This document shows positions 12,521 to 50,775 of a stretch of 64,000 nucleotides of DNA, piece after piece. A program made the position numbers and the translations under genes. The notes under the pieces were generated by a model. It saw only the letters and a program-made list of their open reading frames with translations. It made no database searches and was not told the origin of the DNA. Position 1 is the stretch's first letter, and each line of letters opens with the position of its first letter. This DNA is from Eucommia ulmoides (taxonomy: Eukaryota; Streptophyta; Magnoliopsida; Garryales; Eucommiaceae). The stretch covers positions 22,279,577-22,343,576 of the forward strand of contig CM028338.1 of assembly GCA_016647705.1 (NCBI GenBank). The letters run 5' to 3'.

Positions 12521-12526
12521 AGTTTT

Positions 12527-16104: not shown

Positions 16105-16344
16105 TGTTTTAGAAGTTCTTGAGCAAGAACTAGAGAGATCGACGGTCACCAATCAACAATGAGCTAAGAGGATGAAGGAGGAAGGGAAATAGCTACTTAG
16201 GGATGACCACATCCCCTAAGTAGGGTGTTCTTGAGGTTTTTGGCTAAGAACTCAAGGGATCGATGATCACCGATCAACTTCCGACCAAGAAGATCAAGGA
16301 GGAAAAATAGGTAATCACTTAGGGATGACCACATTCACTAAGTA
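16105..16344 (+). other. Duplicated two-hairpin block of an Ogre-like LTR
   Basis: Copy one has AGTTCTT-GAGC-AAGAACT near 16108-16126 and CTACTTAGGG...CCCCTAAGTAG at 16193-16223. Copy two has GTTTTTGGCTAAGAAC near 16236-16252 and CACTTAGGG...CACTAAGTAG at 16316-16344. The spacing between copies is 119-123 bp. A GATCGATGATCACCGATCAA-like link lies between the hairpins. The block lies downstream of the TATA box, so it would be in the transcript. Confidence 0.75.
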
Positions 16345-17847
16345 GGTATGTTTCTTCAAAAGGTTTAAACTTGTATATGTTGCTTGTACATAGCATAACC
16401 ATGTAGTTAAAACACTTTAATTTCATGTACATAACACATAAAACTAATAAACATCCAAACGAACACTTGATTTTGTCATAACAACCAAACAAATACTTAA
16501 ATTTTTACTATAGCAACCAAACTATGTTCAAATCATACAAAATCATTCAAAGCATCTCAAGAACGTTCGAGAACATGTTAAGAATATGTGAGGATTCAAA
16601 TCATCTGAGAACATATTAAGAACATGTGAGGATTCAAACAAAACTTCAATCATACTATGAGTTGTACATATTCTCTACGATTCTGTCAATAACTTTACAC
16701 CAACTTAAAAACGATTAATAATAAATATCATTAAGGTTGTGATTTAGGTTGTTCACAACTTTAAAAATTGTTAATAATAACTAACTATGGTTGTGATTCA
16801 AGTTGTTCACAACCAAAATTAACTAAAACAAACCAGTTTAATAAATAAAACAAACTAGTTTTATAACTAAAAAAATCAGTTTTACAATTAAAACTAAACC
16901 AGTCTTTAACTAAAACTAACCTAGCTTTGAAACATAACCACAATGAACTACCTTTGACCTGATCTTTGGTAGCCACCCAAAATATGTAGGTAGCCCACGA
17001 TACACGTTCAGTCACCATAAATAGTAAAAAATAATTTTTACCATAACCAGAATGAACTACATTTCACCCAATCTTTGGTAACCACCCAAACTATGTAGGC
17101 AGCCCATGATATGGGTTCGATCATCTTAAACAATAAAAAATAGTTTTTACCTTAACCAAAACGAACTAAGTAAAGACCTGACTCTCATTTGAGATAAATA
17201 GGCAACCCACGTGCGGGTTCGGTTGCATATCCAAACAATTTAGTCTTATTTTGCATTTCATTTCTTATAGCTTGCATATTTACATTGATGTCTATATATC
17301 AACTGTTATTGGGTGTCGCTGACTAGTATTAGTAATAGTATTTAGCAACTTTACATTATATCATGCAAAATACCATAAAAAAGAGTAAAAACTTTAAAAA
17401 GAGAATTATTATTGTTTTAGTAAATGAAAGAAAACTGTTTGGATAGTGTTTAACAGTGAATATTTATTTAGACCAAGGTACCGTTTATGGACGGGTGTCT
17501 TGGGGAGCGTAAAACCTTCCCCAAACATAACTGACTACCGAACTTAAATAATATCTTTGGTACATAAACCTTTGGGAGTCAAAACACGGGCCATTTTAAA
17601 AGGAAAAATTAATTTCTAAAATCCTGATGGTCTAGAACACCATTTAACCCCATGCTAGGTGGAAACTCCGTTTTTAACAAAAATCTCGGCCCAAGAAGTT
17701 TTACAAACCGATGCGTAGAAAAACTCTTGAAAAACCATTTTCAAAATGAACGGATTTGGACGACTTAGAGAGGAAGGTATGAAACTTGTTTTCATCCTCT
17801 TTTCAATTCTCTACTTCTTTCACTATCAAAATTCGGGGTGCATCAGC

Positions 17848-17864
17848 TAGCGACTCCGCTAGGG
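17848..17864 (+). other. Primer-binding site, tRNA-Arg type
   Basis: TAGCGACTCCGCTAGGG resembles TGGCGACTCCACTGGGG, the complement of a plant tRNA-Arg 3' end. Ogre elements are known to use tRNA-Arg. It begins two bases after the LTR end. Confidence 0.75.
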
Positions 17865-17983
17865 ACTATAAGAGAGTCAGGCCTAGTTGGAGTCTAAATC
17901 CATATTCATTGTTTAATAACATCCAAGCATTATGTCTTTGATTTCAGGCACAAATGATTCCCTACCAAAAATATAATGGTGAC

Positions 17984-20286: not shown

Positions 20287-20291
20287 CTAAT
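20287..20291. repeat. Target-site duplication (left), CTAAT
   Basis: CTAAT precedes the LTR start at 20292 and is repeated at 25711-25715, directly after the 3' LTR. Confidence 0.9.
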
Positions 20292-21610
20292 TGATAGGTG
20301 GAATTTATCTATTTATTCTCAAACCGGTTTTGGTAGTTTTCGAGTATTATTATAGTGTTTTAATATGTTTTAATTTGTTTTTATTTGTTTGTATGTAAAT
20401 CAGGTGTTTCGGATGAAAATGGCTGAAAACGGTCTATAATCGAGCAAATTGGTGGAACGTTATGGAAGAACAGTAGAAAAACAAGCAAAAAGGCCATTCA
20501 GGACTGCAGCTCCATTGACAGTCAATCGAACAAAATGTTTCTACCCAACCACCGTTGTAGCGGTCATCCAGCAGAAAGCCTACTGACTTCTCACTGCTGC
20601 AGCGGTCCGGTTCCACCTGGATTTGATATTTTGGGATATTTTGTAGATATTTTTGTTCCTTATTTATCACCCCTATTCACCAACACTTAGGGAACGTTTT
20701 TGGGACCTTCTTGAGAGCTCCAAGGCATATCAACCAAGAGAAGATCACAAAGCCAAGAAAAGAAAACGATCTTGGAGCGGTTTTAGCATTGGTTCTTCGG
20801 ATAATGACTAGTCTCCTTATTTTTCTCTTTATTTCTTAGTTTTAGTTGATAGTTTTGTTTATATTTAGCTTGTGTATTATTGAATATAGGGCTATTGCCA
20901 TGTGTAGCTAAACATATATTGTCTAGGGAGCAATTTGTTTATAAAAACGTTGTTTGTTTGATCTTTGTTTCGTTATCAGTTTTTCATCCATATTTGATTG
21001 TGTTTACCATTTTATTACAATCATTATATTCTTGTTATGGTATTTTGGTTGGTTTGAGAATACGGGATTTAACACTTGGGAGAGGTAACCCCGGATTCAG
21101 ACTAGGATTTAAACACAACACGACAATCTAATGACCCGTGAGGGTATTAGAAAGTGTGTAATCCGTGAAGTTGGGGCGAGATTCATGTGACCAAGTGTCG
21201 TATAGACACTAGAGGGGGATTTCGACGTTGACGCAAAGTCGCATATTCATTCACTTTACACTCGGGAGAGGTAGTGAGTGAGTTTTTGATACTTAGATTG
21301 TCGGATAGATTTGAATGCCATTAATGTAAACTAGATTGAAACGAACACATTGAAGTGAACAAAGTTAATCCCTAGGCAATATAATCCCTTAAACGTCATA
21401 TTAGTGTTGTAGTTATTAATTTAGTTTAGTATATTTTAATAACAAAAATAAAAACTGAGTCGCCTAGATAAAGTTAAGTTATGACAATCGCGGTACTTAG
21501 TGACGATCTAATCCAATCCTTGTGGATACAACTACCCTGACTATTCTCACTCTACTAAAATTTGACTTGTACACTTGCGGTGAAAGTAGCGACGTAATAT
21601 TCCGCTACCA
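20292..21610 (+). repeat. 5' LTR of Athila-like element
   Basis: It starts TGATAGGTGGAATTTATC and ends TCCGCTACCA, followed by the primer site. It shares the CGGGAGAGGTAACCCCGGAT and CACTCGGGAGAGGTAGTGAG blocks with the other Athila-like LTRs. Confidence 0.88.
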
Positions 21611-21616
21611 AGTTTT

Positions 21617-21633
21617 TGGCGCCATTGCCGGGG
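21617..21633 (+). other. Primer-binding site, tRNA-Asp type
   Basis: TGGCGCCATTGCCGGGG differs by one base from the complement of the plant tRNA-Asp 3' end. It lies six bases after the LTR end. Confidence 0.85.
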
Positions 21634-21824
21634 ATTGGCTTTTAGATTGTTGTTGATATTGTGAGTAAGTAACTTGATTTTAATCTAGGCATTTATGTTG
21701 TTTATAATTTTTGTTTGTAGTTTTATTTTTCATACAGGGTACTTGAAGATGTTAGGTCAATAAGTACTGTTGCATTTCTTTCAAAGAGATTTTGAGCCGT
21801 TTTATTGTGCTTGAGATTGATACA

Positions 21825-22440
21825 AGGAGTTGCTGTTTTGGTTCCCAAACCATCGTTTCCTGAGGGAGTGTCAACTACTAAACTTCCTCGATGGGTTACT
21901 AGCCGCAACAAGAAATTGGGTTGAAGGAGAAAACGGTACCACCTCTTTCGACCAACTAACCGCGGACGAAGCCTATTGGTTGCTGGAAGAAATGGCGGAG
22001 TTTGATTATCAGAGTTGGAATTATTCAACAAGCTACTAAATCTTGGCAGGTAATTCTATTGTTTCGATGCCATGTATTGACACCTTGGACCAACAGGAGG
22101 AGTCTTCCCCCACCCTGAAAGAAATGTTCACTAAATTTTTGGGAGAGACTCAAGCTTTCTGGAGGGAGATGAATGACTGTCACAATGAGCATGAGGTTCA
22201 TCTTGACAATATTGAGACGACCTGCACAAAAATTGATGCGACCGTAACGTCTATTCAGACGCAAATCGGTTAGCTTATTTGTTACATTGAGGCCGAGTTC
22301 GAAATGGTGGTACTGAGAAATATACACGCCACATGCATTGAAAGCCACCAAGAGGAACTGGATACGAGCGGGAAGAACTTTGGTGCATTTTATGATGATG
22401 ATTCTAGTGAGGAGAAAACCCAAGCATGGATCAAAGATTG
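21825..22440 (+). pseudogene. Athila-type gag remnant
   Basis: A frame at 21830-22039 includes LLNFLDGLLAATRNWVEG and DEAYWLLEEMAEF. These match the Athila gag pattern F--GL---TR--VD and EAYELLEEMA. A second frame at 22043-22273 has TLKEMFTKFLGET and a regular I/V-T-I-Q heptad pattern, like the gag segment before the zinc knuckle. The same region is present, inverted, at about 46860-47340. It is a fossil remnant. Confidence 0.7.
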
Positions 22441-22468
22441 TGATTCTTCACCATTTGAGATCTAACTA

Positions 22469-22690
22469 TTGATGTTGCCACCGATCCAAGACGATCATAT
22501 CTATGAAGATCCAATGTGGCTCAATTGTCCTCCACCGCCTTTTGCAATGTTCATTCAAGCCAACCGAGCACATGAGATAGAGACGAGTCTTACTGAGAGT
22601 TCGAGCCGAACAATGCCAAATCTCGCCAAGCTTGAGAGCGTTCACAATCAAGACCCGTATGTTGTGTTGTATGACACATACTATGGGTGA
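22469..22690 (+). pseudogene. Conserved frame before the Athila landmark block
   Basis: The frame contains the peptide PPIQDDHIYEDPMWLN and later YVVLYDTYYG. The first peptide is closely matched in the minus-strand element at 46533-46727 (PPIHEDHINEDPMWLN). Conservation in two elements suggests that it was once coding. I do not recognise a domain. Its position just before the landmark block suggests the end of the ancestral element's coding region. Confidence 0.5.
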
Positions 22691-22740
22691 AAGCCGCTCT
22701 TTGATGGGCCCTTCTCCGTGTCAAGCTGAGGACGTTAAAC

Positions 22741-22765
22741 CAAGAGCTTCTTGGAAGGTAACCCA
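22741..22765 (+). other. Athila landmark block
   Basis: GAGCTTCTTGGAAGGTAACC continues into CAAG; it is a diverged copy of the block at 12905-12928. Confidence 0.6.
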
Positions 22766-22806
22766 AGTTTTCAAATTAATTAATCCATCACTGTTGACTT
22801 TATTCG

Positions 22807-22827
22807 GAGGCGAGATTGTCTCGCCTC
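22807..22827 (+). other. Conserved stem-loop of Athila-like elements
   Basis: GAGGCGAGA and TCTCGCCTC form a 9-bp perfect stem around TTG. AGGTACGTGTTCTA follows shortly after. Counterparts lie at 12968-12988, 46264-46284 and 60493-60513, always just after the landmark block. Confidence 0.75.
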
Positions 22828-22899
22828 TCAGGTACGTGTTCTAAACCCCATTCGTCGTCATGCTTTATTTCAAATATTGAGATCAATGATTAGGTCATT

Positions 22900-24344
22900 G
22901 TGGATATTGACCGTTTTAAGTTTGGGGGGGATGTTTAGTATGTTTAGTATGTGTTCTTGCTGTTAGTTTTGTAGTTTTAGTTTAATGTATGCATGTTTGT
23001 TTAGTTTAGTGTAAATGTGTTTATGTTTTTAGTATGTGTTGTTGTGAGCTGAGTTTTGCATTCTTCTGGGCCATTACCTAATGATAATGTTATCCCCTAG
23101 TTGTTTTTCGAGGTCAAGGGTAATGCCCTTCCATGTGTGTTCTGTGTGCTTAGCATATCGTTTTGGTAAAAGTTATTGTAGATCCTAATTTGTACGAGCA
23201 CGTAGACTCAATGTATAGCTATCCAATTGATTTGAGGATTGATTATTCATTAGCCAAATTCATGAAAATTTTAGGGATTCTAGAACTTGATTGGAGAAAA
23301 CTTGAGGCGAAATCCTAGGGGAAGTAGTTTAGGAGACATGATTTAGGCATTCATTTTTATCGCTTGAGCCTTTGAAGCTTACCTTGTTATATGTTTGTCC
23401 CTCGTTACCCTGTCAAAGACTATAAGAAGTTTCAATTATGAATACATAACAAATGCCCTGGCCAATTAAAGTTTTTCCAAACCATTGTCGCTAAACCTAA
23501 GGCACAATTTGAGTGAAATCAAGTTAGTGTTTGTTATGCTACTTGAAGTGAGCGGTTGGGTTTTGGGCGAATTATTGATTGGTTCGGTATTCGAGTACTC
23601 ACTTGTCATTTTTCTATCGTATTTCCACACCCGTCAAATTGTACAAATCAAATAAGTTTGGAGGTGTGTTTGTTGAAAAAAAAAAAGAAGAGAAAAAGAA
23701 TAAATATAATTCTAATTTTGTTTTGTCTTGACAAGTGAGTACTACGTTTTCAAATATAAGTTTAGGGTTGTTTCAAATTGATCTGTGTGGGGTTACGAGT
23801 GTGATTGAGCCAAGCGTTGTGCCTCGGGTATTGTTTGGTTAATAACATTAACCTCTTTTTATATTCTTGATACACCCTTGGCCATTTTTCGAAAATTGAA
23901 CCAAGTCCAATTGATCTTTATGAATTTCCAAGCCTACATTAGTGGAGAGTAGAACTTAGTCTGGCATATGGATATCCTAATCCTTTATGATATATGTCGT
24001 GAGTTTCGTTGGTGGATAATCCAATTCGGTCTTTGAATAGTTATATAATTGAGTTTTCGCACACACACTTGAGCAGGATCTAGAATGACATTTACCATTA
24101 ATGAATGTTGAAATTTTAGAACACCACATGGTGTGTTTTACTCCTGAACTCGATATAATTGGGGGCCGTTGAGGGAAAATATTTTGGTCGGTATAGTTGA
24201 CTTTCAAAACTCTCATGTCTTTATATATAGGTAGTTTGTGTTTTTATTTGTGTTTAGTTTTTGTGTTAAATATTTCATTGTGTTTTTTATTTTAGTGTGA
24301 GTGTTTTGCTCGAGAACTAGTAAAATTCTAAGTTTGGGGGTATT
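22900..24344 (+). mobile_element. 3' untranslated part of Athila-like element
   Basis: This non-coding part is shared with 13020-13906, 44759-46200 (inverted) and 60560-62024. It includes a GGTTCGGTATTCGAGTACTC segment and a TTTGGAGGTGTG-type tract, and ends in AGTTTGGGGGTATT before the 3' LTR, which serves as the purine-rich primer tract. Confidence 0.7.
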
Positions 24345-25710
24345 TGATAGGTGGAATTTATCTATTTATTCCCAAATCAGTTTTGGTAGTTTTTGAGTAT
24401 TATTATAGTGTTTAAATATGTTTTAATTCATTTTTATTTGTTTGTATGTAAATCAGGTGTTTGGGATGAAAAGGGATGAAAACAGTCTATAATCAAGAAA
24501 ATCGGTGGAACGTCGGTGAAAGAACGATGGAAAAACAAGCAAAAAGGCCATCCAGGACTGCAGCTCCACTACTGTAGTGGTGAAACCACCGCTGCAGCGG
24601 TCAATTGAACATAATGTTTCTGCCTAACCACCGCTACAGCGGTGAACCTCATCGCTGTAGCGGTCATCCAATAGAAAGCCTATTGACTTCTCACTGCTAC
24701 AGCAGTCCGGCTCCACTTGGATTTGATATTTTGGGATATTTTATAGATATTTTTGTTCCCTTTTTATCACCCCTCTTCACCAACACTTCGGAAATGTTTT
24801 TGGGACCTCTTTGAGAGCTCCTAGGCTTATCAACCAAGAGAAGATCACAAAGCCAAGAAGAGGAAACAATCTCAGAGCGGTTTTAGCGTCAGTTCTTCGA
24901 ATAATGGCTAGTCTCCTTGTTTCTCTCTATATTTCTTAGTTTTGGTTGATAGTTTTGTTTATGTTTAGCTTGTGTATTGTTGAATATAGGGCTATGGACA
25001 TATGTAGCTAAACATATATTATCTAGGGAGCGATTTGTTTATAAAAACATTGTTTGTTTGATCTTTGTTTCGTTATCGTTTTTTCATCCATATTCGATTG
25101 TGTTTACCGTTTTATTAAAATTATTATAAGCTTGTTATGGTATTGTGGTTGGTTTGATAATATGGGATTTGACACTCGGGAGAGGTAACCTCGGATTCAG
25201 ACTAGGGTTTAAACACAACGCGACGATCTAATAACCTGGGAGGGTATTAGAAAGTGTGCAATCCGTGAGGTTGGGGCAAGACTCATGTGACCAAGTGTCA
25301 TATAGACGTTAGAGGGGGACTTTGGCGTTGATGCGAAATTGCATATTCATTCACTTTACATTCAGGAGAGGTAGTGAGTAATTTTTGGATACCTAGATTG
25401 TCGGATAGATTTGAATGCCGTTAATGTAAACTAAATTGAAACGAACACGTTTAAGTGAACAAAGTTAATCCCTAGGTAATATAATCCCTTAAACGCTATA
25501 TTAGTATAGTAGTTATTAATTTAGTTTAGTATATTTTAATAACAAAAATATAAATTGATTTGCCTAGATAAATTTCAGTTATGACAATCGCGGTACTTAG
25601 TGACGATCTAATCTAATCCCTGTGGATACGATAACCCTTACTCTTCGCACTCTACTAAAACTTGACCCGTACACTTGCAGTGAAAGTAGTGACGTAATAT
25701 TCTACTACCA
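24345..25710 (+). repeat. 3' LTR of Athila-like element
   Basis: It starts TGATAGGTGGAATTTATC and ends TCTACTACCA, followed by the CTAAT duplication. It carries ACCGCTGCAGCGGT at 24588-24601 and related CCGCTACAGCGG motifs at 24630-24665; the 5' LTR has fewer of them. Confidence 0.88.
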
Positions 25711-27039
25711 CTAATAACTATGGATATTTGGTCTGAATTACTATTGAACTTATCTTCATCATAATTTAGATTAATCTGATGCAAAAAATACAACAATAAT
25801 TAATATGATTAACTGAGTATACTCTAGTCAAAATAATCTCACATAAACATGGAAAGGAAATATATATGGCACGTATAGGTTAATACCTAAAGCATTAGAA
25901 ATAAACTTTGGAAATTAGGGGAAAGGTGGAGAAAAAGCCTTATTAAATAAGCCATTCATTTGAATCCTCTTCCAAAACTTATCCAAAGTCATTCTAACCC
26001 CAAGCCAAATCAATAGCTATCTTTCTTCCAAGCCAGATGTTCCCATTCTAGGAAATCCCGGCCTCAACCAAGCAAGATATGAAATAACCCTCTGCTATTC
26101 TTGTCCAAACCTTTCCATCTTGCAACCAAAACCTAGAGTTTGTTCGAAGAAGAAATCCCGATCAGAATTCTAATTGCAACGGAAGAAGGAACAAGGGAGC
26201 AAGAAGCATATCAGAACTACCAGTCAGCTTTCCGCATCAGGAGCCACATGGAAGTAACCAAGTGAGATGACTAATAACAAGAGGGTACTTGGCGTAAACA
26301 CTCTAGGAAGCATTCTAGGAGAAAACTAGCATCTCTAGATAGATAATATATTCCCTAAGAAAATATTTTAGATAAAAGGTTTAGGCATTATAAAATTATA
26401 CAATACATAAGTCGGTAACAAAGTACTACATAGGCACTATGCATTACGAATCAGTTAGGTATGCATAACCTTCGTACACATGAGGAAACTTAGGCATCAT
26501 ACTTAACAAAAAACCTATGGCATCTTGAATATCATGTTGCATCAATAGGTCTTTATCAGTATAACACTTGCACCCATACACCTTATCTGAGAGATCTAGT
26601 AGGCTAGCAAGCAATCCTCGGACATGTAATCTGGTCAAGCAACCTCACCACGTCACTGTACCATCATCCGTCTTTGATAATAGTTTTCAATCAAATTAGG
26701 GTTAAACAAGGAGTCTACCTCACATAAGGTGTGTCTTGATAATAGACCATTACTGTGAAACATCGGGGGTGTATTAGAGTATCTTTAGAAAATTGACCTT
26801 TCTAGGATCCAATAAGATTTTCTTAGAATTGAATAATTTCTAGCACTATTTAAGTACTCTAATTACCAAACCTCCGATAGCCTAAAATCAAAATAGTGTA
26901 ATTTAAAGACTTAAACAAACTACTAATCAAAGATAACAATTAGTATTAATCTAGCTAAAGCTTAGGTAAGAGACTCTAACCTTTAGACTAGAGTAATATT
27001 GTTTCCCACAAATGTAGCTATCTTCATCTGCGATAGGTA
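25711..27039 (+). mobile_element. Internal region of Ogre-like element, no recognised domain
   Basis: It continues the host element after the CTAAT duplication. I see only short frames and no reverse transcriptase, protease or integrase motif on either strand. The frame at 26444-26638 (minus) is short and unrecognised. Confidence 0.45.
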
Positions 27040-28174
27040 TGGTTCTTAGAATCGTTTGACACCAAAACTACGTTCGACCTAATCCTTGGTAGATCACCAA
27101 TGCATGTAGGAAACCCAAGTAGGTTCGGTCGAAATAAAAAGAAAGAGAGGTATCATCCTTACGATACTCGCTCAATCCTATACTAAGATGCATATCTCGA
27201 GCAGTCCCTTGATGTTTCGAAGGAGATTCTTTTCGCTTTTCTTGTTATTCGAACAATAGAGAACAACTTAACCACAACTATGCTTGACCTGATCCTTGGC
27301 AACACTACCAAGGTACATAGGAAATCTATTGAAGTTTGGTTATCCAACTGTAAGAATCCCTAGACATGGGCTAGAGTGTGTTCTCAATGTTTACGTCACC
27401 GTGAATAGATTAGAACTAATAGAGTCCATTGTACGCTCTCCACCAAGCGGCAAGGGTCTAAGTTCACATTATCACTCCCTATTAAGGGGTAATAGGGGGT
27501 AGAAGTGATAAACAAATATGTAAAAATGAGTCCTTGAATTTTCAGTTGCTAAGGAAGGTCTTAGGTTAATCTAAAGACAATAATTCCAAAATTGGGTTGG
27601 AAAATTCGGTATTCGACAGTAATTCAGAGTTCTTCAAGATTAGAAGGAATAAAGGTTGAAAAACTGCTAGAAATCTAGCAAAACCTACATAGAAAGGTAT
27701 GACTTTCAATTGTCTACGTTCTTTCTTCAACCCTGGGTAGATAGTCGAGAGACCAAAAGATATAGGAAAGAGGAAAAGGTATGATGAATACTGTGGTAGG
27801 AGACGAATACCTACTGACCTACCTTAAGTAGATGGTTAATTTACATACTCTCCTAGTCGGAGATGCCAGCATACTATCCAACCTTAAGTATTTAGAGGAG
27901 TACATCATTTTCTACCTCAGTTGGTTGGAGAAATAGACAATTCATACCTACTTCACACGGGTCGGTGAAATATATCTTGTTTAACCTAAGTAGTCGGCAA
28001 TTCTTCCATACCATCCTACCTAAAATAATTGAAAGTTCTACCATACTATCATACCTTCACAATAACTTACGATCCTGATAAACGATAGTCAATTTCGAAA
28101 CCAGTTTGGTACGCCTAGAGTCATCACTGAACCAATTATACATAACACTTCAAATTCCCATGATTCCCGCCATC
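27040..28174 (+). repeat. 3' internal repeat region of Ogre-like element, part 1
   Basis: Double-hairpin modules (TTGGTAGATCACCAA type followed by GTAGGAAACCC and GGTTCGGTC) lie near 27060-27130 and 27270-27350. At about 27800-28060 a looser repeat built on CTACCTTAAGTAG-like segments occurs. The end at 28080-28165 matches, inverted, about 56660-56720 in the minus-strand element. Confidence 0.6.
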
Positions 28175-29900
28175 AACAATAAAGCCTTATTAAATACTAT
28201 CCTGTGATCCAAATTCATTAAAAACTGAAGAACTAAAAAAACCATCGTGCACCATAGAATGCTTGGTGTGGTATACTTTTGGGTTACCTTAAGGATAGAT
28301 CTTTTGAAAAGAGAAGAAGAAGGAAGCCATGAAAGTCCCACTGAAGAATAGGAGCAGTAGGACGTGATAGTGATGATCCCTCAACACCGAGTCCTCTGGA
28401 GCTGGGAATATGAAGACCGACTCAAGCACTAAGCTATTTTGTCGAATATGCACCTTGCTCCTCACATCTGATGGTATAGTATTCGAGAGTATCTCTACCT
28501 CACCCCATGAGGTCTCCCTCAAGGGAACGGTATGTCCTCGGAAGCGAACCCTAGTGACCATCACCTAGTTGAGGGGCGTCGACACCAACTCTCTGCATAC
28601 TAGGTGAAGAGAATTTTTCATCGAGAACCAACGCTCGATCAGGGCATTAGGATACCCATGATCCAAACAGGAGGACTGAATGGTGAGAAAATCCCTAAAG
28701 CCACATCCCTGGAGGAATAGGTGATAGTCGGGGTGCATCCTTCTCGAGTAGAGGGTGTAAAAAGTCGGCCATTACCCCCTAAAACCCCCGTTACAATAGT
28801 GGTTGACCTATAAAAGTTTACCCACAAAATATAAGACATTGTTCTTTTATAAAGAGGGGTAAATTAAAAAAGGTTTTAATAGCGAACTTGAGTAGAATGA
28901 AGGTAAATAGAAGGATGATCATGAAGATCTCCTACTAAGGTTTGATTCTCAAGCTCTGTCAGATGAATCCATACCACATCAAAGGTAAGGGCTCTATCTC
29001 GAAAAGCCCTAGGATCCTCCGGATCAAAGTCGTCTCCTTGGAAATCATCAGGAATGCCCCACTTAGGCATCTTATCCTCTGAAGGGACATAATCAGGATC
29101 TTCCGCCATCTCAGCTGTGACAAAAGGGCCAGTAGAATCTCGATCCATAGGAGAATCCAACGGACTATCCATCGTCGATTTGCCAACTCTAGACACTTTG
29201 AAGGTCTTCTTAGTAGTAAAAGTGGAAAGGGTAGGCACGTCATCAGAAATCCTGAGTGTCAAAGTCTTGAGTCAACCACGGGAGCATTTTGTAGCACTTC
29301 CTCTAATCGAGGTCTCAAGGGATTCACCCTTCCCATGAGAGCGAGAAGGACAGCTGCCGCCATCACCCAAAGAACCAATGGCTAACATAGTGTCATTTGA
29401 AAGAAAAGTCAAAGTTTTTATCACTAGGGTTTCGACTTAAGGATACAAGTTGAAATATTTTAGAATTATTATAAGAATTTTAGAAGACATATCAGACTCA
29501 CCACTACCATTATTCTATAGAAACAATCATAAATAACCATGACTAATCTCTAACAATCTAGTATTGTCCGGTCATTAGGTGGCACGAGATTGAGTTTACC
29601 CTTTCAAGATTAAAACGGTTGTAATTATATCTTCTTTAGTTTAAGTACGTGTTGTTTAATGCTTAAAACTTGGGTACAGTCGAGAAAACCAAGTTCAAAA
29701 CTCCCACCCCTAAAAAATGGAATTTATCAAAATTTGCAAACCCATCTCACTTAGGAGAAACATTAAAATACTAAACAAATATACTTCAAAGAACAACAAT
29801 GATATACCAGAGATAAACTAATTAAACAATACTATCAATCCGGTGTAATGAAAGTTGATATCCAAGACTCTCTAAAAAAATGGCAAACAATTTGCAAGCC
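28175..29900 (-). other. Extra block with antisense reading frames
   Basis: The flanks of this block are adjacent in the minus-strand element near 56600-56660, so about 1.7 kb is extra here. On the strand opposite to the element it has frames at 28289-28564 (91 residues), 28639-28839 (66) and 28876-29262 (128). The last is acidic, with PDYVPSEDKMPKWGIPDDF and DDFDPEDPRAF. I do not recognise any of them. Tat-lineage elements are known to carry extra antisense frames between integrase and 3' LTR, which fits the position. A captured host fragment is the alternative. Confidence 0.45.
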
Positions 29901-32465
29901 TTGGCAATATAGGTAATCATTCTTATCAACTAATGTTTAGATATTATAAACAATTACACGACCCGGATGTCTCACCAACAGGCAAACTCCTAAGATATTA
30001 GCTTCATATTTCGATAATATAATAATGAACCCGTCGGCCCGGTAAATTCTGCGATTTAATTAATAAAATCCCTAATTCATCACCCCGATAAGTAGTAAGA
30101 TGAACCAATTTAGCTTCATAATACTATAGGTAATCACTCGATAGGAAGTGTCGGATTAGATTCCCCAATGGAATTTATCCAATCGCTGCCCCAATCCACG
30201 TCTGGGGCACATTTATCCTATCCTTGTTTTCCTAATGGAAACAAGGTTCATTTTATTTCACAACGTAAAATGAAATGCCTAAATCATAATGAACATAATT
30301 AATTTCATGAAACCAAAAGAAGTAGGGACCCGTGATACGTAGGAAACCCTTGTAGGTTCAGTTGATATACTTAAATCCAACCATGTGTGAGGAACTACGT
30401 GTCAACCTGATTCTCAGTTATCTGAGATAGTTAGGCAACCCAAGTAGGTTCGGTCATTCCCTTTAAAATAAAAACTATTCATGCGCATTGAATTAAGCAT
30501 CAACTAGATTCCCTATGAAAATAGGGATACATAGGAAACTTTTATAGGGTTTAGTTGACAACCAAGGAATACCCAGTAACATTTTGACCTGGTCCTTGGT
30601 AGATCACCAAGGTATGTAAGAAACCCAAGTGGGTTCGGTCAAAATAAAATAGGAAGAGGGGTATTATCTTTATGACGCTTTCTCAGCCTTAGACCAGAGC
30701 ATATCTCTAGGAATAGTCCATTGACTCTCCTGAGAAAATCCATATACACTCTATTTGTTTACCAAACAATAAAACATGCTTAACCAAGAACTTCTCGTTA
30801 ACCTAACCCTCGGTAAAGCCTGAGATACGTAGGAAACCTTTGTTTGGTTTGGTTGACAAACCACTAGGCGTTGAACTACTGTTCCAACCTAATTCTTGGT
30901 ATATTATCAAGATACATAGGAAACCTTCTTTGGTTGCCATTAACAAAATCCCATGCCAATTGGGATTGAATCATGACAAACAATAAAATCCCCAAAGAGT
31001 TTCTCAATAATAAATCCCCCAATCAATTGGAATTGAACCATACCAAATATAACAGTAGCTCACCAATCCAGATTTAACCATGTTAAGCCTTAACTAGTCA
31101 AGGAAGAATAAGGTGTCGACCGGAGTCCTGGTAAATACCAAGATACGTGAAACCTTTATAGGTTGGGTTGCCACCTTAAACAAAATTCCTCCATCCCCAG
31201 TAGACTACACTTCAATCTATCCTTGGTAGATCACCAAGGTACATAAGAGACCCAAGTGGATCCGGTTAAAGCCAGAAAAATGTCTACATCACGATATTAT
31301 CTCAACCCTGTATTAGGGCGCATCTCCCGAGAAGTCCCTTGACTTCCTTTAGAAGCCAATCATTTTGTTAAGCAAACAACAAAGGATACCTATGCTCGAA
31401 CTATGTGCCGACCTGATCCTTGGTAGATTACTAAGATACGTAGGAAGCCCTTACAGGTACGGTTGACAATCTGAAATAGCACAACAAGGGCTGAACTACA
31501 TTTTGAATAGATTCCTAACCTAGGAAAGTCAGTGTATGTAGATAACCCAGGTGGGTTTCGATCATCTAACGATCATCTTCCAAAACAATAATACCAATAT
31601 ACATAAACAAACCAATGGGTTTCCAAACTAAAATAAACATTACAATCACGTACTCAGTTCAAGAAATAGAGGCAACCTATATGGGCTCTATCGCGTCCTT
31701 TGAATGCTCAGGAGATAGTCCTGCTTCCCAGCTAGAGCTAGGGCACTTTATATCCAGTTTTTTTGTTGAGAAACTGTGATGGGACGTACTGCAGCTAGAG
31801 TTGGGCCATATTATATTTGATTTCTCTGCTGAGATTATGTGATAGAAGTCACCCCAGCTAGAGCTAGGGCACATTATATTAGATATTCTCCGTAGAGAAT
31901 GTCTTGATATAAGCCTCGCACCAATCACCAACTGAAAACTATAATCCCAGGCATAAACAAGCATCACAAAGCTCCAGTCTACGATTAGGGCACATTTTAT
32001 CCATGGTTAAACTTATCTTGGGAAGTTTTCTAGCCCTCTTCATGCAGTCCTAAGTGGGTTGTGGCCAAGAAACTCCACTAGGTGTTGAGTTTCCCCGAGG
32101 GTCTTCGCCCATGTGAATTCTCTCAGTCATTTTCCATCTTGTTTTGATATGACAACCCAGGAATTAGTTTCTCGAACCAAGAACTTGTTCCTAAAAATAT
32201 TTATGTACTTCACAAGTCGAAACTACATTTGATCTGATTCTCAATTATGTCTAAGATTTGTAGGCGCCCTAATGGGGTTCGTTAGGCCACCACAAAGATC
32301 AATGTCGACCTCAATCTTAGACTAACTAAACAGCTCAGATTTGGTTTCTTTAACCTAGAACCATTCCACCCAATATTGATTTACTTTACGTGTTAGAACT
32401 AGATATGGCCTGATTCTCATTAATTTGAGATATGTAGGAAAACTCTTTGGGCACGGTCACAACCA

Positions 32466-32990
32466 GGAGATAATTAATCGAGTGTCATCCTTCTCTTTAT
32501 TAGGAGCCAATTGGTAGAGTGTCATCCTCCTCACAAATCAGAGACGATTGATCGAGCATCATTATTCTCACTAACAGGAGGCGATTGACTGAGCGTCATC
32601 CTCCTCGCTGTCAGGAGATGATTAACAGAATGCCATCCTCCTTATCTACTTGGAGACGATTGGCCGAGCGTCATCCTTCTTGCTACTAGAAGTCAATTGA
32701 CCGAGTGTCATCCTCCTCACCACCCAGTGATTATTGACTGAGCGTCATCCTCCTCACAGCCAAAAGATGATTGATTGAGTGTCATTCTCCTTGCTACAAG
32801 GAGACGATTGACAAAGTGTCATCTTCCTCATCTACCAAGTGACAAATGACCAAGTGTCATCCTCCTCATCACCAGGAGATGATTGAGCAAGTGTCATCCT
32901 TCTCACAACCCAAAGATGATTGATAGAATGTCATCATTCTTACCACAATTAGGAGCTGGTTGATCGAGTGTTATCCTCCCTACCTTCTAT
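32466..32990. repeat. 37-bp minisatellite, about 14 copies
   Basis: The core GTCATCCTCCTCAC or a variant recurs at 32484, 32521, 32556, 32595, 32632, 32670, 32707, 32747, 32781, 32818, 32856, 32893, 32930 and 32970. Spacing is 34-40 bp, mostly 37. Each is preceded by a GATTGA-CGAGC-like segment. A few diverged units occur inverted at 53734-53850 and near 54080-54130. Confidence 0.9.
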
Positions 32991-33038
32991 AGGATTAACA
33001 ACTCATTATCCTTTAGGAGCAATATTTTAATTTTAAAT

Positions 33039-33156
33039 GAGACAACCAGTGAGACATTATTAAACGAGACAACCAACGAGACAACTAATGAGACTATATT
33101 AAATGAAACAACCAACGAAATTGTATTAAACGAGATAGCCAATGAGACAGTATTTT
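33039..33156. repeat. 27-bp tandem repeat, about four copies
   Basis: Units begin GAGACAACCAACGAGAC or a variant and end ATTAAAC/T. The spacing is 27 bp, except one longer unit. Confidence 0.75.
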
Positions 33157-33376
33157 AATTTCGTAGTAGTAGAATTTACTCTACATGCTAGAACTACATA
33201 TAACCTGATTCTCATTAATTTGAGATATGTAGGAGAACCCTTTGGGTATGGTCACAAGAAGGAGTTGATTAATTGAGTTTCATCTTCTCCGCATCCTATA
33301 GGATTGACCGTGCATCATCCTTTAGGAATATATAGGGAGGGCTCGTATAGAGTGTCGTCCTCATCGAGACCTTAGG

Positions 33377-33381: not shown

Positions 33382-34783
33382 TGTTGGTGATATTTTAATC
33401 GCTTTGAATTACTCGCAAGTGAACGAGGTCAAGTTTTAATAGTATAGGAAGAGTAGAGTTATCGTATCCACTGGAATTGGTTTAAATTGTCGTTAAGTAC
33501 CACAATTGTCGTAACTTAACTATCTAGGCGATCCAATTTTAGGATAAGTAATTAAGCTACAATACCAAGAATAAAATTTATGGGAATAAATTATTTAGGG
33601 ATTAATTTCATTCACTTAAACGTGTTTGATTTAGTCTAGTTTACATTAATGGTCATTAATCTATCCGATAATGTAGGTGTTTAAAACTCACTCACTACCT
33701 CTCTCGAGTGTAAAGTGAATGGATATTCAATTTGTGTCAACACCTATATCCCTATCTAACATCTAAATGATTAAATGAGTCTTTCCCTAACCTCATGGAT
33801 TGCACACTTTCTAATAATCTCCCGAAACACTAGAACGTCTCGTTATGTTTAAACCCTAGTTCAAATCCGGGTTTACCTCTCCCGAGTGTCAAATTCTGTA
33901 TTCTCAAATCAACCAAAATATCATAACAAACATATAATAGAAGTAAAAGAATGGTAAACACAATCGAATAGGGATGAACAACCGATAACTAAACAACGAT
34001 TTACTCAAACAACATACTTGTAAACTACATCAATCCCTAAATAATAAACGTTTAGCTTATGGCCATAACCAAATATTCTACTAAAAACAACCTACACATG
34101 ATCAAATAACCAAGAATATTTAAGAAATAAAGAGAGAAACAAGGGAGAATAGCCGATATCTGAAGAATAGATGATTCCACGTCCAAAAAATCCGCTCCGA
34201 TCTTGTTCCCTGTTCTCCAAATGTGTTCTCCTCTTCTTGGTATGATCTTTGAGCTCTCAAAACTCCCCAAAAACATTCTTGATAGGTGTGGGAATGAATG
34301 AAAATCAAGACTTATGCAAAATATCTAAAAACTATCTCAAAATATCAATGCCAGCTGGTGCCGGGTCGCTGCAGCGATGGGAAGGCAGAAACTCACTGTT
34401 GGATCACAGCTGCAGTGACCAAACCATCGTTGTAGCGATGGAAATGCTTGCTGTAGCGATGCTCAGGCTGTGTTGACACCAGGTTCGTCGTTTAGCCATA
34501 ACGTTTTCGTCCGAACTCCGATTGAGGTGATTCAAAAACCTATGGAAATATAAGATGTAGATATACAACGTACATATTTTGAAAGTTTTCAAAATCGAAT
34601 TGCATCATGGTAAAAAATGGCCTTGAAGTTACAGCTCTTGAACCGATTTTGCATTTTGTTTCCCATTTATTTATAAACCTACAAAACAACACAAAAACAT
34701 ATTAAACTAACAAAAATACTTGAAAATAAACAAATATTTGAAAATAAAAATACTTAATTTGTTGATAATTAAACCACTCATCA
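33382..34783 (-). mobile_element. Solo LTR, Athila-like, CTGCAG subfamily, minus strand
   Basis: Read on the minus strand it starts TGATGAGTGGTTTAATTATC (34783) and ends ATATCACCAACA (33382). It has both LTR ends and a 5-bp duplication, and no internal region on either side. It contains the CGGGAGAGGTAAACCC-type blocks and TCGCTGCAGCGA-type palindromes (34367-34470). A solo LTR is the usual product of recombination between the two LTRs of one element. It sits inside the 3' internal repeats of the Ogre-like element. Confidence 0.88.
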
Positions 34784-35639: not shown

Positions 35640-37240
35640 ACCCTTAAAGTATAGGATATTTCAAACAATTAATGCGATTACCTACCCCGACCTTGAAACA
35701 TTTACAACCATCGAATCTTGTCGGTTTAGCAACAAAAAGAATTGTTTAATTTATGCATACCACATCAAATGATACCTAAAAAAATAAAATATACTTTGTT
35801 AAGTCTTGGAAATTTCATGATAAAGCCCTAAATCACTAAAGTGATTTAAGAATTGGGCTTGATTTGGATTTACACCAATCCAAGATGTCTTGACAAACCA
35901 TCCTAGGCCCAATAGATTAAGGGACCAACCATAATTAAAATCCCACAAAAGAGGCTTCAAAATAACCAAGGATATTTCCTAGAATTTGTATACCAAATGG
36001 ATAAAAAAGGGAACCAAGACACTTAGGGTATGACCAACCGTTATTGAAACTAAATCGATTTGGTCCGCCACCAAAGTAATGCAATTATTGTGCATTTAAT
36101 ACCCATACCATAAAGTATTAAATGATTGAGATGACATGTATAGGATACATTGAAGGTATATAGATATTTTGAGCAAAATATATTAAGTGTAACCGAAAAC
36201 CTTGAATTGTGATTACCCGTTACTGAAACCAAATCAAATTGGTTTGCCACATAGCCAATGAATTAAATTCACATACTATCAATAAATAAATGATTGGGAT
36301 GACATCTAATGGCTAGGTTCAAAGTATGTTGATATTTTCACCAAAATATCTTAAGGTTGACTAGGAACTTGAAAACCAACCGTCAGTTACAAGGAAAGTT
36401 AACTCGATTCCATCTGAAACCAACCATATGAGTGCTCAAATACCCTTAAATTATATGAAAGTTTAAACAATTAACTCGGTTACCCCACCCCGACTTTGAA
36501 ACATTTACTTTTCACTGAATCTTGTCAAATTTAAGACGAAAAAAATAATTGCTTCTCTCATGCGTACCACATCACATATTACCATGAAAAAATATAATAT
36601 ACCTAAATAAATTCTTTTAAATTTCATGAAAAATCCCTAAATTACAAGGTGATTTAAGGATTGTGCTTGACTTGGATTTTCACCAAATCCAAGTAGTCTT
36701 GACAAACCACCCTAGGCCCAAGCAATCAAGGGCCTAGCCATCATTTAATGCCCACAAACCAAGACTTATAATGGCCAAGGAGCCTTCCTAGATGTTACCT
36801 ACCAAATGGAAAAGGAAGGGAACCAAGACACTTAGGGAACAACCAACCGTCATTGAAACTAAACCAATTTGGTTCACCACCTAAGTAAGGCATTAAATGA
36901 GCATTGAATGCCCATAACATCAAGTATTAAATTCTTGGGATGACATGTTAAGACCACAGTCAACGTATCTTGATATTTTAAGCAAAATATCTTAGAAACC
37001 AACGGAAAGCCTTGAAGCGTGACGACCCGTTATCAAAACCAAACTGGATGAGTAGCCTCCAAGCAATGAATTAAATTCATATACCATCAAAAATTAAATA
37101 TTTGGAATGACATGGCATGGCTAGGTTCAAAGGATCTAGATATTTTCACAAAAATATCTAAGGGTAACTAGGCAACTTGTAAACCAACCAACGGTTACAA
37201 GGTAAGTTAACCCGATTCCATCCGAAATGAACCAAATATG
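35640..37240. repeat. 802-bp tandem duplication inside the LTR
   Basis: The copy starting ACCCTTAAAGTATAGG near 35640 is repeated from 36442 with many substitutions. Both contain TACC(A)CCCGAC-TTGAAACATT, TTGACAAACCA-CCTAGGCCCA and AAGGGAACCAAGACACTTAG. Each copy also has weaker sub-repeats of about 165-190 bp built on ACCGTTA--GAAAC-AAATC. The LTR piece at 52980-53500 shows the same sub-repeats. Confidence 0.8.
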
Positions 37241-37627
37241 TGGCCTCCAAGTCATGACCCATCACTTTGAATTAAATGCAAAGTGACACCTACAAACTAG
37301 TTACAATGCACCTTGGATGCATTTATGACGATCAATCTGAAATAGTGGATCTAACCAGCATTTAGCCCCTAAACCGAACTGGATCCATCTTATCAAGCCA
37401 TAAATGCACCCATGTGCAAGGAATTTCATTGGTTGAGAGGTAATGATTGGAAATCATTGGTAATGATTGCCAATGATTACCAAATCTTTGAGAATCCAAC
37501 CTTCTCCCCTAAATACATTCAAAGCCAAACAAAATCAAGACAAGGCAACAAGCCCTCTAGGTCAAACACTGCCCAGGGAACACTCTAGTGTTACCTATGT
37601 ATTGGTCAATGAGAAGGGCCTAGGGCC

Positions 37628-37636
37628 TATAAATAG
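37628..37636 (+). promoter_or_regulatory. LTR TATA box
   Basis: TATAAATAG lies in the conserved position, about 140 bp before the two-hairpin block. Confidence 0.65.
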
Positions 37637-37769
37637 AGAGGTATCTCTTCTAATTTTTTAAGTCTTGAAGGCCTAGTTTCTCTCTCTAAACTCCAGCAAT
37701 TCTCTCAGATCCTAGGCCTATCAAGTGGATTTATTAAATAATACATCATTATTATTCCAAAATCTAGTC

Positions 37770-38019
37770 ATGGAAGTGTTCTTGAAGTTCTTAAAAGAAG
37801 AACTTTAAGGATCGATGATCACTAATCAACATCGAGTCAAGAGGAGCAAGGAGGGGAATGAGGTTAGCTACTTAGGGACGATGACATCCCCTAAGTAGGT
37901 TGTTCTTAGGTTGTTGGATAATAACTCGAGGAATCGACGACCACCGATTAACCACCGACCAAGAATATCACGGAGGAAAAAGAAGTAAACACTTAGGGAA
38001 GACTACATCCCCTAAGTAG
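37770..38019 (+). other. Duplicated two-hairpin block of an Ogre-like LTR
   Basis: Copy one has AAGTTCTT...AAGAACTT near 37785-37806 and CTACTTAGGG...CCCCTAAGTAG at 37868-37898. Copy two has GTTGTTGGATAATAAC near 37911-37926 and CACTTAGGG...CCCCTAAGTAG at 37990-38019. The spacing is about 122 bp. Confidence 0.75.
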
Positions 38020-38429
38020 GTTTGTTCCCATCAAACCCCCATTGATTCTTGGTTGATTTTGTGTATATTGCTTTGTATGTAGTAGGATCATGTAGATAAT
38101 GGACTTACTTTCATGTAGATAATACATAAAACCCATAAAACAACCAAAAGAAGGTTTTTGATTTTGTCAAGAACATCAAATAAACACTTAATCTTAACTA
38201 TAACAACCAAACTAGGGTAAAATCATACAAAACATTCAAGAACATTCAAAAACATTCAAGAGCATTCAAGAACATGCCAAACAATTCAAAAACATCAAAT
38301 CATCCAACAACATGTTAAGAACATGTGAGGATTCGAACAAAACTACTATCACACTATGAGTTATACATAGTCTACACGATACCCCCAAGAACATCATATT
38401 TCGTTTCCTTTTTAGCTAAACAAAACACG

Positions 38430-38432
<3 letters not shown>

Positions 38433-38468
<36 letters not shown>

Positions 38469-38469
38469 T

Positions 38470-38505
<36 letters not shown>
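38433..38505. repeat. (AC)n-(GT)n inverted microsatellite
   Basis: About 14 AC units (38433-38460) are followed by ATATATATTTAT and about 16 GT units, giving a long self-complementary arm pair. A TA run and a further AC run follow to about 38565. The open frames across it are by-products. A GT microsatellite is at the same place in the LTR at 8901-10654 (9211-9240). Confidence 0.95.
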
Positions 38506-38509
<4 letters not shown>

Positions 38510-38889
38510 CGCGCATATATGCGTGGTGTATATATATATATACACACACACATACATACATACCACACCGACCGACTCTTGTGGCGAAGAACTCAGGATA
38601 AAAGGAGGGTCTCTATTCCTTCGGGGATATGTGTGATTCTTCTTCAGAAACCTTCACGTTTTCCTTAGTTACGAGTATGATTGGCAGAAATATATGGTAT
38701 TTTGTTTCACTTTCAACTCAAAACTTACACAAACACTAAACTAACCAAAGTAAAGGAGTTCGTTTAAGGCTCTTGACAAAATCAAAGGGTTGTTACTTAG
38801 CTTTGTCCACAACCAAAACTAATTGATAATTAACCAAAATAAACTGAAAAAAACAAGCTTTAAACTAAACCAACCCAAGTTTCCAAACT

Positions 38890-39180
38890 TAACAAGACTG
38901 AACTACGTTCGTCCTGATCTTTGGTAACCACCTAAAGTACGTAGGCAGCTCATAAAGTTTCGGTCACACTTTTAATAATAAAACCCTTTCCTTTAACGAG
39001 ACAAGAATAAACCACGTCTGACCTGATCTTTGGTAACCACCCAAAGTACGTAGGCAACCCATAAGGGTTTGGTCACACATTTAATAATAAACCATATCCT
39101 TTACCCTAACCAGAATGAACTACGTGATAACCTAATTTTCATTTGAGATACGTAGGCAACCCACATGCTGGTTCAGTCAC
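38890..39180 (+). repeat. Three tandem double-hairpin modules in LTR
   Basis: Modules begin near 38890, 39010 and 39117. The middle one has CTTTGG-TAACCAC-CCAAAG at 39028-39046, then TACGTAGG, then CAACCCATAAGGGTTTGGTC. Similar triplets lie at 7350-7620 (inverted), 16930-17230 and 51340-51600 (inverted). Confidence 0.8.
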
Positions 39181-39849
39181 ATATCCAAACAACTTAGTAT
39201 TAGTTTGTGTTTCATGTAGTATAGCTTGCATATTTACATATATGTTTGTATATAAACTGTTATTGTGTATCTCTGACTAGTATTAGCTATAGTATTTACC
39301 AGTTTTCTATTAAATCATGTCAAAAATACATAAAAAGAACAAAAACTTTAAAAAAATGGATTATTTTTGTTTAGGTAAATCAAATAAAATTGGTTGGATA
39401 ATGTTTAATAGTGAATATCTATTTAGACTAAGGTACCATCTTCGGAACGGGTGTCTTAGGGTGTCTAACACCTTTCCCGAGCATAACTGATTCTCGAACA
39501 TAAACAATATCTCTGGTACATAGACTTATGGAAGTCAAAACACGGGTCATTTCAAAAGGAAAAATGAATTTCAAAAATTTTGGTCACTTAACACACCATT
39601 TAACCTCATGCTAGGTGGCGACTCTGTTTTTAACAAAAATCTTAGCCCAAGAAGTTTTTCAAAATCGACGCATAGAAAAGGCCTTGAAAAAACTTTTTTA
39701 AAATGAACGGATTTGGGCGACTTAGAGAGGAAGGGATAAAACTTGTTTTCATCCTCTTCCCGATTCTCTATTTCTTCCACCATCGAAATTCGGGGTATGT
39801 CACAGGATAAACCCTAGTTTTGATTCGGGAAGTTTTTGTATTTGGTGGG

Positions 39850-42194: not shown

Positions 42195-42584
42195 CAATTT
42201 TGAAATGGCCCGAATTTTGATTCGAAATTAAAGTTCTTAACAATAGTATTATTTAAGTTCAGAGGTAGGTTATGCTCGGGGAGGATGTTAGGCACCTGAA
42301 TACAATCGTTCAAAAACGATACCTAGTGTCTAAGTATTTTAAATTAAACTAAGTCCAAATTTAGTTTAGTTGGTTAACATAATCCTTTTCCAAACATGGA
42401 AGTAAGTAATATAGACTACAAAAATGTCCCCCTTTTAAATCACCTATCTATTATAGAAGGATCAACAAGCTTGGTCATTGTTTTTTTTTTTTTTGTTTTC
42501 CAACTCAAGTTATGGTGGAAAAAACTTATGTATGATGAAAAAGAAGAGAGATAAAATTTTAAAATGGAAGTATTGGCCCATAGA
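41897..42584 (-). repeat. Ogre-like LTR piece (5' LTR of minus-strand element)
   Basis: It begins, inverted, with TGATGCATCC and contains the GTCGCCACCTAGCATGG-like and GGGTATGCT segments common to the family. A T12/A26 run lies at about 42158-42195. It is a partial copy. Confidence 0.7.
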
Positions 42585-42625: not shown

Positions 42626-43753
42626 TTATTGTAGCGAGCTTTGGGTAGTGATCCCAGTCCAGTTGGCCAAAGTCACTAGGTGTTAAGATGCCCTGATGAC
42701 TTAATAATCGGATTATATAGAGAGCATGATTCACCTGATTCTTTTTTGGTGACCACTCAGTGTTTAAAAATTTTTTGAGACTAGTTTTTATTTTATTATG
42801 TTTACTTAAACATACTTTCAGGATTTTACATTTTTGAGAATTATGGTAGTTTGAGTTAGTCTTGAGGTCTTCGTTGCATTTACCCCTATCCCAATTTTTT
42901 TTCCATTATCGGCTAGTATCTAGTTAAGTCTTATTGTGTTCTTCTAGCTTAATCGCTTTTTCTTTAATTTAAAAGATTCATCCCATTTTTTTTTATTTTT
43001 TATTTTTAAGTAGGTTTCACATGTTTCAAAAACTTTCACTAACAAATTTGCTATTTCTGGGCAAGATCTCTGTCTATATTATTTCTTCTTAGAAGTCTAT
43101 TTTCCTTTGTTCACCTGCCCGGTCTTTTCAATACCTTTTCTCTTTGGCAAGGTCAGGTTCCAAAACTTTCTTTACTATCATTCTTATTATGATTCTTCTA
43201 GATATTTTCTCCTTTTATTTCAATTGAGGAGGTCTTCTATAATCTTCCATGGTTCCTCAGACATTCTCGGGTTGTAACATATATAACGATTCCACATTAG
43301 GGCTCTTAGGTTTTCCTTCTAACTTTCTCAGATTTTGTTCTCAATATCTCACCAACGTTTGGTTGAAACAAGACTTTTCTTTTAATGTTACTTTGGATGA
43401 TGTTCCACCTGATGTGAAAATTATATTATCATAATCTTAATCTTCCCATGGTGTGTAGATAATGATAGACAGGTCCACTTTTGAAGGCCATAAACGGAAA
43501 TTTGAAATAAAATTTAGGTAGATAATAATGCATTATATAACAGTAGGATTATACTTTAGTCACTTACATACATTGCTTAAACAACAAAATCCCTACTTAA
43601 GGAAAATTAGGAAAAGAAAAAGTTAGATAGATATCTAAATACATTCCTTAGCTTACTACCTCGTCTTGGCTTAATTCTCACCTTCATTGACATTAATCAC
43701 TCCAACTTGGATGAGATATTTGACATGTTTTTGCAGGGAATAACTTTGATCTG
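42626..43753 (-). pseudogene. Gag 3' part and downstream region of Ogre-like element
   Basis: The 42630-43440 stretch matches, inverted, 19190-19980. The 43450-43753 part has the position of the gag C-terminus. I see no intact domain. The plus-strand frame at 43249-43434 is a chance frame. Confidence 0.5.
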
Positions 43754-50772: not shown

Positions 50773-50775
50773 TTT

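Follow-up and report, generated by a model that had tools for sequence, protein, structure and literature searches.

Many copies of a module with a covarying hairpin stem in decayed retrotransposon-like sequence of Eucommia ulmoides

The window analyzed in this work is a 64,000-nucleotide stretch of Eucommia ulmoides DNA (NCBI GenBank assembly GCA_016647705.1, contig CM028338.1, positions 22,279,577 to 22,343,576 of the forward strand), and all positions given below are counted from its first letter. Self-comparison revealed an A+T-rich sequence packed with decayed, nested repeats, including four long terminal repeat (LTR)-like repeats with related 3′ ends, which lie at about 15.2-17.85 kb and 37-39.8 kb on the plus strand and at about 6.75-8.9 kb and 50.8-51.9 kb on the minus strand (hereafter the 17k, 39k, 7k, and 51k LTRs). 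Each of them holds a triplet of a module of about 70 bp that also recurs in two further arrays and is the subject of this study. The module consists of a conserved sequence frame around one hairpin of 5-7 bp, P1.

Module copies were collected with an iterated, sequence-only nhmmer profile grown from core-match seeds at a threshold of E < 0.002. The profile found 43 copies in the window, 39 of them complete. Twelve copies lie in the four LTR triplets, 16 in an array on the plus strand (27.06-33.25 kb), and 15 in an array on the minus strand (53.86-56.27 kb); the complete copies number 12 in the LTRs and 27 in the arrays. A first-pass annotation of this DNA had described a double-hairpin module recurring at least twenty times, in four LTR triplets and two 3′ internal arrays, and the module is indeed present at all of these sites, in more copies than claimed. 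A covariance model built from the 39 complete copies found 42 of the 43 places again, together with one doubtful extra. Since the profile and the covariance model both derive from these copies, the relevant comparison is with chance: the best profile score in 20 dinucleotide-shuffled windows was 10.7 bits, compared to at least 14.3 bits for the 43 copies. The doubtful extra match to the covariance model (42314-42369, minus strand, E 0.094) lies next to a fragmentary LTR of this family and is perhaps a very decayed module.

Unless noted otherwise, the following placements are based on the profile and the covariance model. The 17k LTR (15235-17845, plus strand; similarity blocks and 3′ end, start approximate) carries copies 1 to 3 of its triplet at 16942-17013, 17051-17122, and 17161-17224, the second of which contains the quoted pair CCCAT/ATGGG at 17103-17115. 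In the 39k LTR (36956-39802, plus strand; start approximate), the three copies lie at 38897-38965, 39006-39074 (the top covariance-model score), and 39115-39178. The far ends of the two minus-strand repeats are approximate. There, the 7k LTR (6749-8915) has copy 1 at 7573-7644 (CTTTGG type), copy 2 at 7464-7535 (CTTT type), and copy 3 at 7362-7425 (TCTCA type), and the 51k LTR (50776-51909) has its copies 1 to 3 at 51535-51602, 51442-51508, and 51348-51415. A primer-binding-site-like GGTGACTCCACTAGGGACT, or a similar sequence, abuts two LTR ends, at 17846-17867 (plus strand) and 50754-50775 (minus strand); it may resemble Ogre-type sites. Because this sequence follows position 17,845 on the plus strand and 50,776 on the minus strand, both repeats are read as 5′ LTRs, and no such sequence follows the 39k LTR. 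Between 6749 and 10652 on the minus strand, a pair of LTR-like repeats from one family abut head to tail (10652 to 8913 and 8915 to 6749), the former being without the stretch that holds the triplet and a TATA-like box, described below.

The plus-strand array comprises copies at 27062-27130, 27272-27341, 30390-30455 (TCTCAG/CTGAGA), 30488-30556 (TCCCTA/TAGGGA), 30572-30640 (CCTTGGT/ACCAAGG), 30786-30854, 30872-30941 (TCTTG/CAAGA), 31104-31169, 31200-31267 (CCTTGGT/ACCAAGG at 31221-31239), 31396-31464, 31491-31563, 31630-31692 (divergent), 32217-32284, and 32393-32458 and 33188-33253 (both TCTCA/TGAGA), and the 3′ part of a module at 30322-30375, a placement by the profile that the covariance model puts at 30289-30363. 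The minus-strand array comprises copies at 53860-53926, 54141-54207, 54317-54384, 54781-54843 (divergent), 54915-54986, 55013-55081, 55218-55285, 55771-55839, 55916-55982, 56004-56071, 56098-56165, and 56201-56268, and partial modules at 55318-55362, 55568-55624, and 55839-55884 (E 0.0013, profile only). The stem-1 sequences that had been quoted at 31221-31239, 30412-30427, 39028-39046, and 32415-32430 are all present. A separate 37-bp tandem array, whose AGGAG and CTCCT arms could pair, lies at 32457-32935 within the region of the plus-strand array.

Each array is followed downstream by LTR sequence of matching orientation. Some 130 bp past the minus-strand array is a piece of about 220 bp from an LTR 3′ end (53733 to 53513), in the array's own orientation, and the plus-strand array sits between the two plus-strand LTRs, with other repeats intervening before the second. 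Some neighboring units also share spacers, and the units in the LTRs are 109 bp long.

Within the unit, the frame (GAACTACGT..GACCTGAT on one side and TACGTAGGCAACCC..GGGTTCGGTC on the other) runs in the order GAACTACGT-n-GACCTGAT-(P1 region)-TACGTAGG-(C/A)AACCC-loop-GGGTTCGGTC. The P1 region between the conserved flanks measures 12 to 22 nt, and its loop is variable in length. Conservation is bounded: from GAACTAC to GGTC, 52 of the 62 well-filled columns hold at least 0.6 bits, with a maximum of 1.88, while outside the module the 99% background (0.217) is surpassed at only one of 35 positions (-60 to -26) and three of 40 (+21 to +60), positions nearer to the module being mixed. The spacers are mostly unconserved over the whole set of copies. 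Both blocks that contain an ACGT are conserved.

Pairing was counted on a MAFFT alignment (A1) of the 39 complete sequences. P1 was paired in 84.7% of its cells, as opposed to 21-53% for slid partners, and 49 cells were changed on both sides, compared to a mean of 19.6 in shuffles, none of which reached the observed value (0/500). The P1 covariation score was likewise higher than in shuffles (0.513 versus 0.308, 0/500); the numbers of P1 pairs and of pair types changed on both sides did not exceed them (118/500 and 89/500). The four partial copies (30322-30375, 55318-55362, 55568-55624, and 55839-55884) were left out of these counts, and as their P1 is Watson-Crick paired at 1, 3, 5, and 5 of 7 positions in the same columns, that is, poorly or in part, the omission favors P1. 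When no structure was supplied, RNAalifold returned P1 as the sole helix, at a small energy of -2.39 kcal/mol. A 5-bp helix was tried in 2,211 placements. For covariation, P1 came first (0.234), followed at ranks 2 to 6 by shifts of itself on the same axis, with 0.084 for the best placement on any other axis; for pairing it was listed first at 0.85, a value that one other placement shared.

The copies are related, and P1 was therefore also compared to nulls in which substitutions were redistributed along a tree while the number of changes in each column was kept (1000 null sets). Three trees were used, built from all columns, without P1, and without any stem. The Watson-Crick covariation of P1 was reached by none of the 1000 null sets on any of them. 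Compensatory events in P1 numbered 5 against a mean of 1.0 on the all-column tree (1/1000), 12 against 2.0 on the tree without P1 (0/1000), and 13 against 2.1 on the tree without any stem (0/1000). P1 has 175 Watson-Crick pairs; when arms were swapped between copies, the mean was 123.8 and none of 10,000 swaps gave more than 155, an effect seen separately in LTR copies, where 35 of 10,000 swaps reached the observed value, and in array copies, where none did (0/10,000). The first-pass annotation would have counted its proposal as refuted if the stems went back to two or three sequence types only. Instead, five P1 stems are fully Watson-Crick over 5 bp, namely TCTCA/TGAGA (6 copies), CCTTG/CAAGG (4), CTTTG/CAAAG (2), TCTTG/CAAGA (1), and TCCCT/AGGGA (1), and by our count at least six compensated pair changes are needed to link them.

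The two other helices of that proposal fared differently. The second stem (P2), said to vary while pairing, had 7 cells changed on both sides versus 5.7 in shuffles (167/500), so that covariation was absent, and its 79.0% of paired cells was reached by 230/500 shuffles. For the outer GACC/GGTC helix (P3), the corresponding values were 10 versus 7.2 (63/500) and 78.8% (45/500), and its covariation score was reached by 80/500. Because the frame is conserved, structurally meaningless placements pair equally often, in up to 85% of cells. A further candidate, P0, would join CTACGT upstream of P1 to ACGTAG downstream of it, with 16 cells changed on both sides versus 8.0 (4/500) and 3 or 5 compensatory events versus 1.2 or 1.3 (120 and 12/1000). 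Most of this signal comes from one pair, columns 12 and 50 of alignment A1 (G-C in 13 copies, A-U in 12), in a CpG context; a P0 helix around P1 is suggestive, and CpG deamination can mimic such co-change. Against the tree nulls (all-column and stem-free tree, respectively, per 1000), standard pairing was reached by 70 and 17 sets for P2, 3 and 8 for P3, and 1 and 0 for P0, and Watson-Crick pairing by 18 and 3, 0 and 0, and 0 and 0. Their covariation measures were reached by 105 to 587 of 1000 null sets. The co-varying stems first described are in this respect confined to stem 1, and what the copies support is one hairpin in a conserved frame rather than a proven double hairpin. Past selection on structure, which had been suggested for the whole module, finds support for stem 1.

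Taken together, the module is a genuine many-copy, probably once-selected hairpin element of a decayed LTR retrotransposon family. We tentatively favor an RNA hairpin array in the 3′ part of the element transcript, to which we give somewhat less than an even chance. Our reasons are that P1 tends to remain paired although its letters differ, and that the spacing of the conserved flanks is variable; a stem would take up such variation, whereas a linear DNA site would not. During the active period of the elements, selection would have kept P1 paired, and the unit would have multiplied to three copies per LTR and to about 15 in a stretch that precedes LTR sequence of matching orientation. In a full-length transcript, the copies would gather in the 3′ untranslated region and in U3, at its 3′ end, as an array of short RNA hairpins, in each of which the P1 stem would join GACCTGAT and TACGTAGG regardless of loop length. 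The Gag protein of the element or a host RNA-binding protein might hold several copies at once, and such binding could serve to stabilize, export, or package the RNA. A more far-reaching version, which we consider unlikely, would see in the module a new cis-acting RNA hairpin that a large clade of plant LTR retrotransposons maintains in many copies, in the LTR as well as the 3′ region, and whose exchangeable stem the conserved frame offers to Gag or to a host protein. In plants, it would possibly correspond to the export or packaging elements of retroviruses.

Several results weigh against an RNA hairpin. Five Watson-Crick pairs are formed in only 14 of the 39 copies, and of the five stem types, two occur just once. 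Changes that break P1 are not clearly below the nulls, with 28 versus 29.4, 30 versus 34.9, and 25 versus 33.3 on the three trees (425, 186, and 37 of 1000 null sets being as low). P2 and P3, although often paired, had to be rejected as covarying helices. An all-pairs G-test, run blind and with R-scape-like nulls, found none of 2,701 column pairs significant, the lowest E being about 1.1; six of the P1 pairs ranked 19, 40, 58, 78, 84, and 132 (E about 40 to 244, with about 40-52 for the best), and the seventh position ranked 1247. As the sample is small and its members are related, we read the P1 signal as one at the level of the helix and specific to pairing; it is at this level that stem 1 exceeds the nulls. 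G-U was not favored over A-C in any helix (17:19 in P1, 19:19 in P2, 15:17 in P3, and 17:24 in P0), and neither was it favored on reconstructed internal branches; decay after insertion may be hiding a bias. Folding was only slightly better than that of shuffled sequence, with a mean z of -0.53 for sense modules, -0.86 for antisense modules, and -0.28 for control segments and with z below -1 in 8/39, 17/39, and 11/39, respectively; the two strands thereby fold to about the same degree.

Selection after insertion gave no clear sign either. Module identity between the arrays was 0.786, 0.778, 0.797, 0.841, and 0.921, compared to 0.790, 0.749, 0.770, 0.649, and 0.638 for the spacers; the two short comparisons favor the module, whereas in the three longest of the five, modules and spacers are about alike. 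Between the LTRs, modules gave 0.746, 0.835, and 0.824 and spacers 0.756, 0.874, and 0.754. Recent decay probably dominates these values. Finally, in three of the four LTRs a TATA-like box follows shortly after the triplet, a placement that would also suit a promoter element. If the box is the promoter, the triplet belongs to U3 and lies outside the 5′ leader, and a transcript bears its modules at the 3′ end, where the 3′ region and U3 are.

In a DNA-level explanation, the U3 triplet would be an enhancer-like array bound in double-stranded form by host transcription factors, and the array copies would derive from the triplet. Plant bZIP factors bind ACGT cores, and the module offers two of these as example binding sites, in CTACGT and in TACGTAGG, both within conserved blocks. 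Some 70 bp separate the end of the triplet from the downstream box (39249-39255 on the plus strand in the 39k LTR), which recurs at the homologous place in three of the four LTRs, and pairing shows no strand-specific bias. However, TATA-like motifs are frequent in the window (1.09 per kb per strand), and the 51k LTR is without a box at the homologous place. A factor that reads sequence would keep the letters of P1, yet these occur as five fully paired types; the conserved blocks stand 12-22 nt apart, a difference of up to 10 nt; and the arrays hold 31 copies, compared to 12 in the LTRs. We regard a regulatory DNA repeat as an unlikely account of the module.

The pairing of P1 might instead be mutational in origin. 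Reverse transcription is known for template switching, and switching between the arms of an imperfect palindrome, during either reverse transcription or replication, could mend mismatches, so that both arms change together with no need of function. P1 is a short dyad, changes that break it show no clear deficit against the null, and the decayed copies give no direct sign of function, all of which such a process would accommodate. Yet other complementary stretches in the unit do not covary, and template switching leaves unexplained why the frame outside P1 is conserved over many diverged copies; we consider this origin improbable. Equally improbable is an ordinary hypervariable 3′ tandem repeat of the Tat/Ogre type, amplified by recombination, in which a handful of related stem types would give the appearance of covariation: for Tat elements, tandem arrays that follow the coding region are a common feature (PMC7004042, PMC11963269), the copies form related types with some shared spacers and 109-bp LTR units, and the blind test gave no significant pair, but the module is also present in the LTRs, the tree-based pairing nulls are exceeded, five fully paired types require at least six compensated changes, and the spacers are mostly unconserved over the whole set.

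Pattern scans for relatives among viral contigs and prokaryote genomes, with the profile run on 97 loci, gave a best E of 0.044, which was taken as chance. Similar sequence may be present in LTRs of other eudicots. We found no report of the module in the accessible portions of the open-licence literature, where the matches to its letter strings that were examined turned out to be a primer or an unrelated marker. As far as these searches show, the module is new in detail and falls within the known theme of repeat-bearing LTR elements.

Elements of the Tat lineage commonly carry tandem arrays downstream of pol (PMC7004042, PMC11963269, PMC3305785). The 3′ tandem regions of plant LTR retrotransposons are described as hypervariable and as giving rise to satellites (PMC7004042), and their origin and function are called unknown (PMC11963269). 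Domains and primer type serve to group Ogre, Retand, and further Tat elements (PMC6317226). The arrangement seen here, with repeats in a long region before LTR sequence, resembles these elements. The monomers of the Tat lineage are, in the sections available, family-specific or hypervariable and are mentioned without a structure, whereas here a single covarying-hairpin unit is present in both LTRs and arrays. Membership of the carriers in the Tat lineage is not proven, as no coding domain, including reverse transcriptase or an additional RNase H, was detected in the 20 open reading frames (ORFs) scanned out of 56.

Among 3′ RNA structures of plant LTR elements, the nearest that we found, and a precedent for the proposed array, is the ENE of Evade/Copia93 and other plant LTR elements, a structured RNA in the 3′ untranslated region that promotes RNA stability (PMC12501189). 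It shares with the RNA hairpin array proposed here a place in the 3′ part of the element transcript. In contrast, an ENE needs U-rich internal loops flanked by stems, and two runs of at least four T occur in 0/39 modules and one such run in 2/39; as described there, the ENE is also one structure, not a many-copy array. The RNA insertions of enod40 are plant stem-loops similar to units of tandem repeats, mostly 60-210 nt and derived from mobile elements (PMC10578108), but they are single stem-loops recruited into a host RNA, and the module sequence was not found in the parts of that report available. BARE offers an example of cis-acting signals in the RNA of a plant LTR element (PMC3735527); it is a Copia element, and its conserved dimerization and packaging signals are mentioned in the available text without a repeat array (PMC3735527). 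If a unit of these 3′ tandem regions has a hairpin kept by compensatory change, the regions would gain a function that can be tested, and old elements could be annotated by means of a structural marker. Any plant genome would serve to check the claim, given a covariance model of the kind built here.

A library of 4227 Rfam families, in which the 5S of Cassandra and the hammerhead of retrozymes were considered, gave no match at gathering score in the window, and ARAGORN found no tRNA or tmRNA there. No ORF of at least 200 aa with a start codon is present in the window. Pfam searches of 20 of its 56 ORFs of at least 80 aa yielded no family above cut-off and only two sub-threshold matches; no pol domain was among them, the elements being decayed. 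In the decayed sequence at 28.2-35.2 kb, four of the seven minus-strand ORFs of at least 80 aa were scanned and had no match. A repeat family of several kb occurs at no fewer than five similar places (20288-25710, 43752-48862, 58663-63559, 33414-34783, and 10643-14324), with no Pfam match above cut-off in the ORFs scanned. A 121-bp tandem repeat is present at 818-1227 in 3.4 copies.

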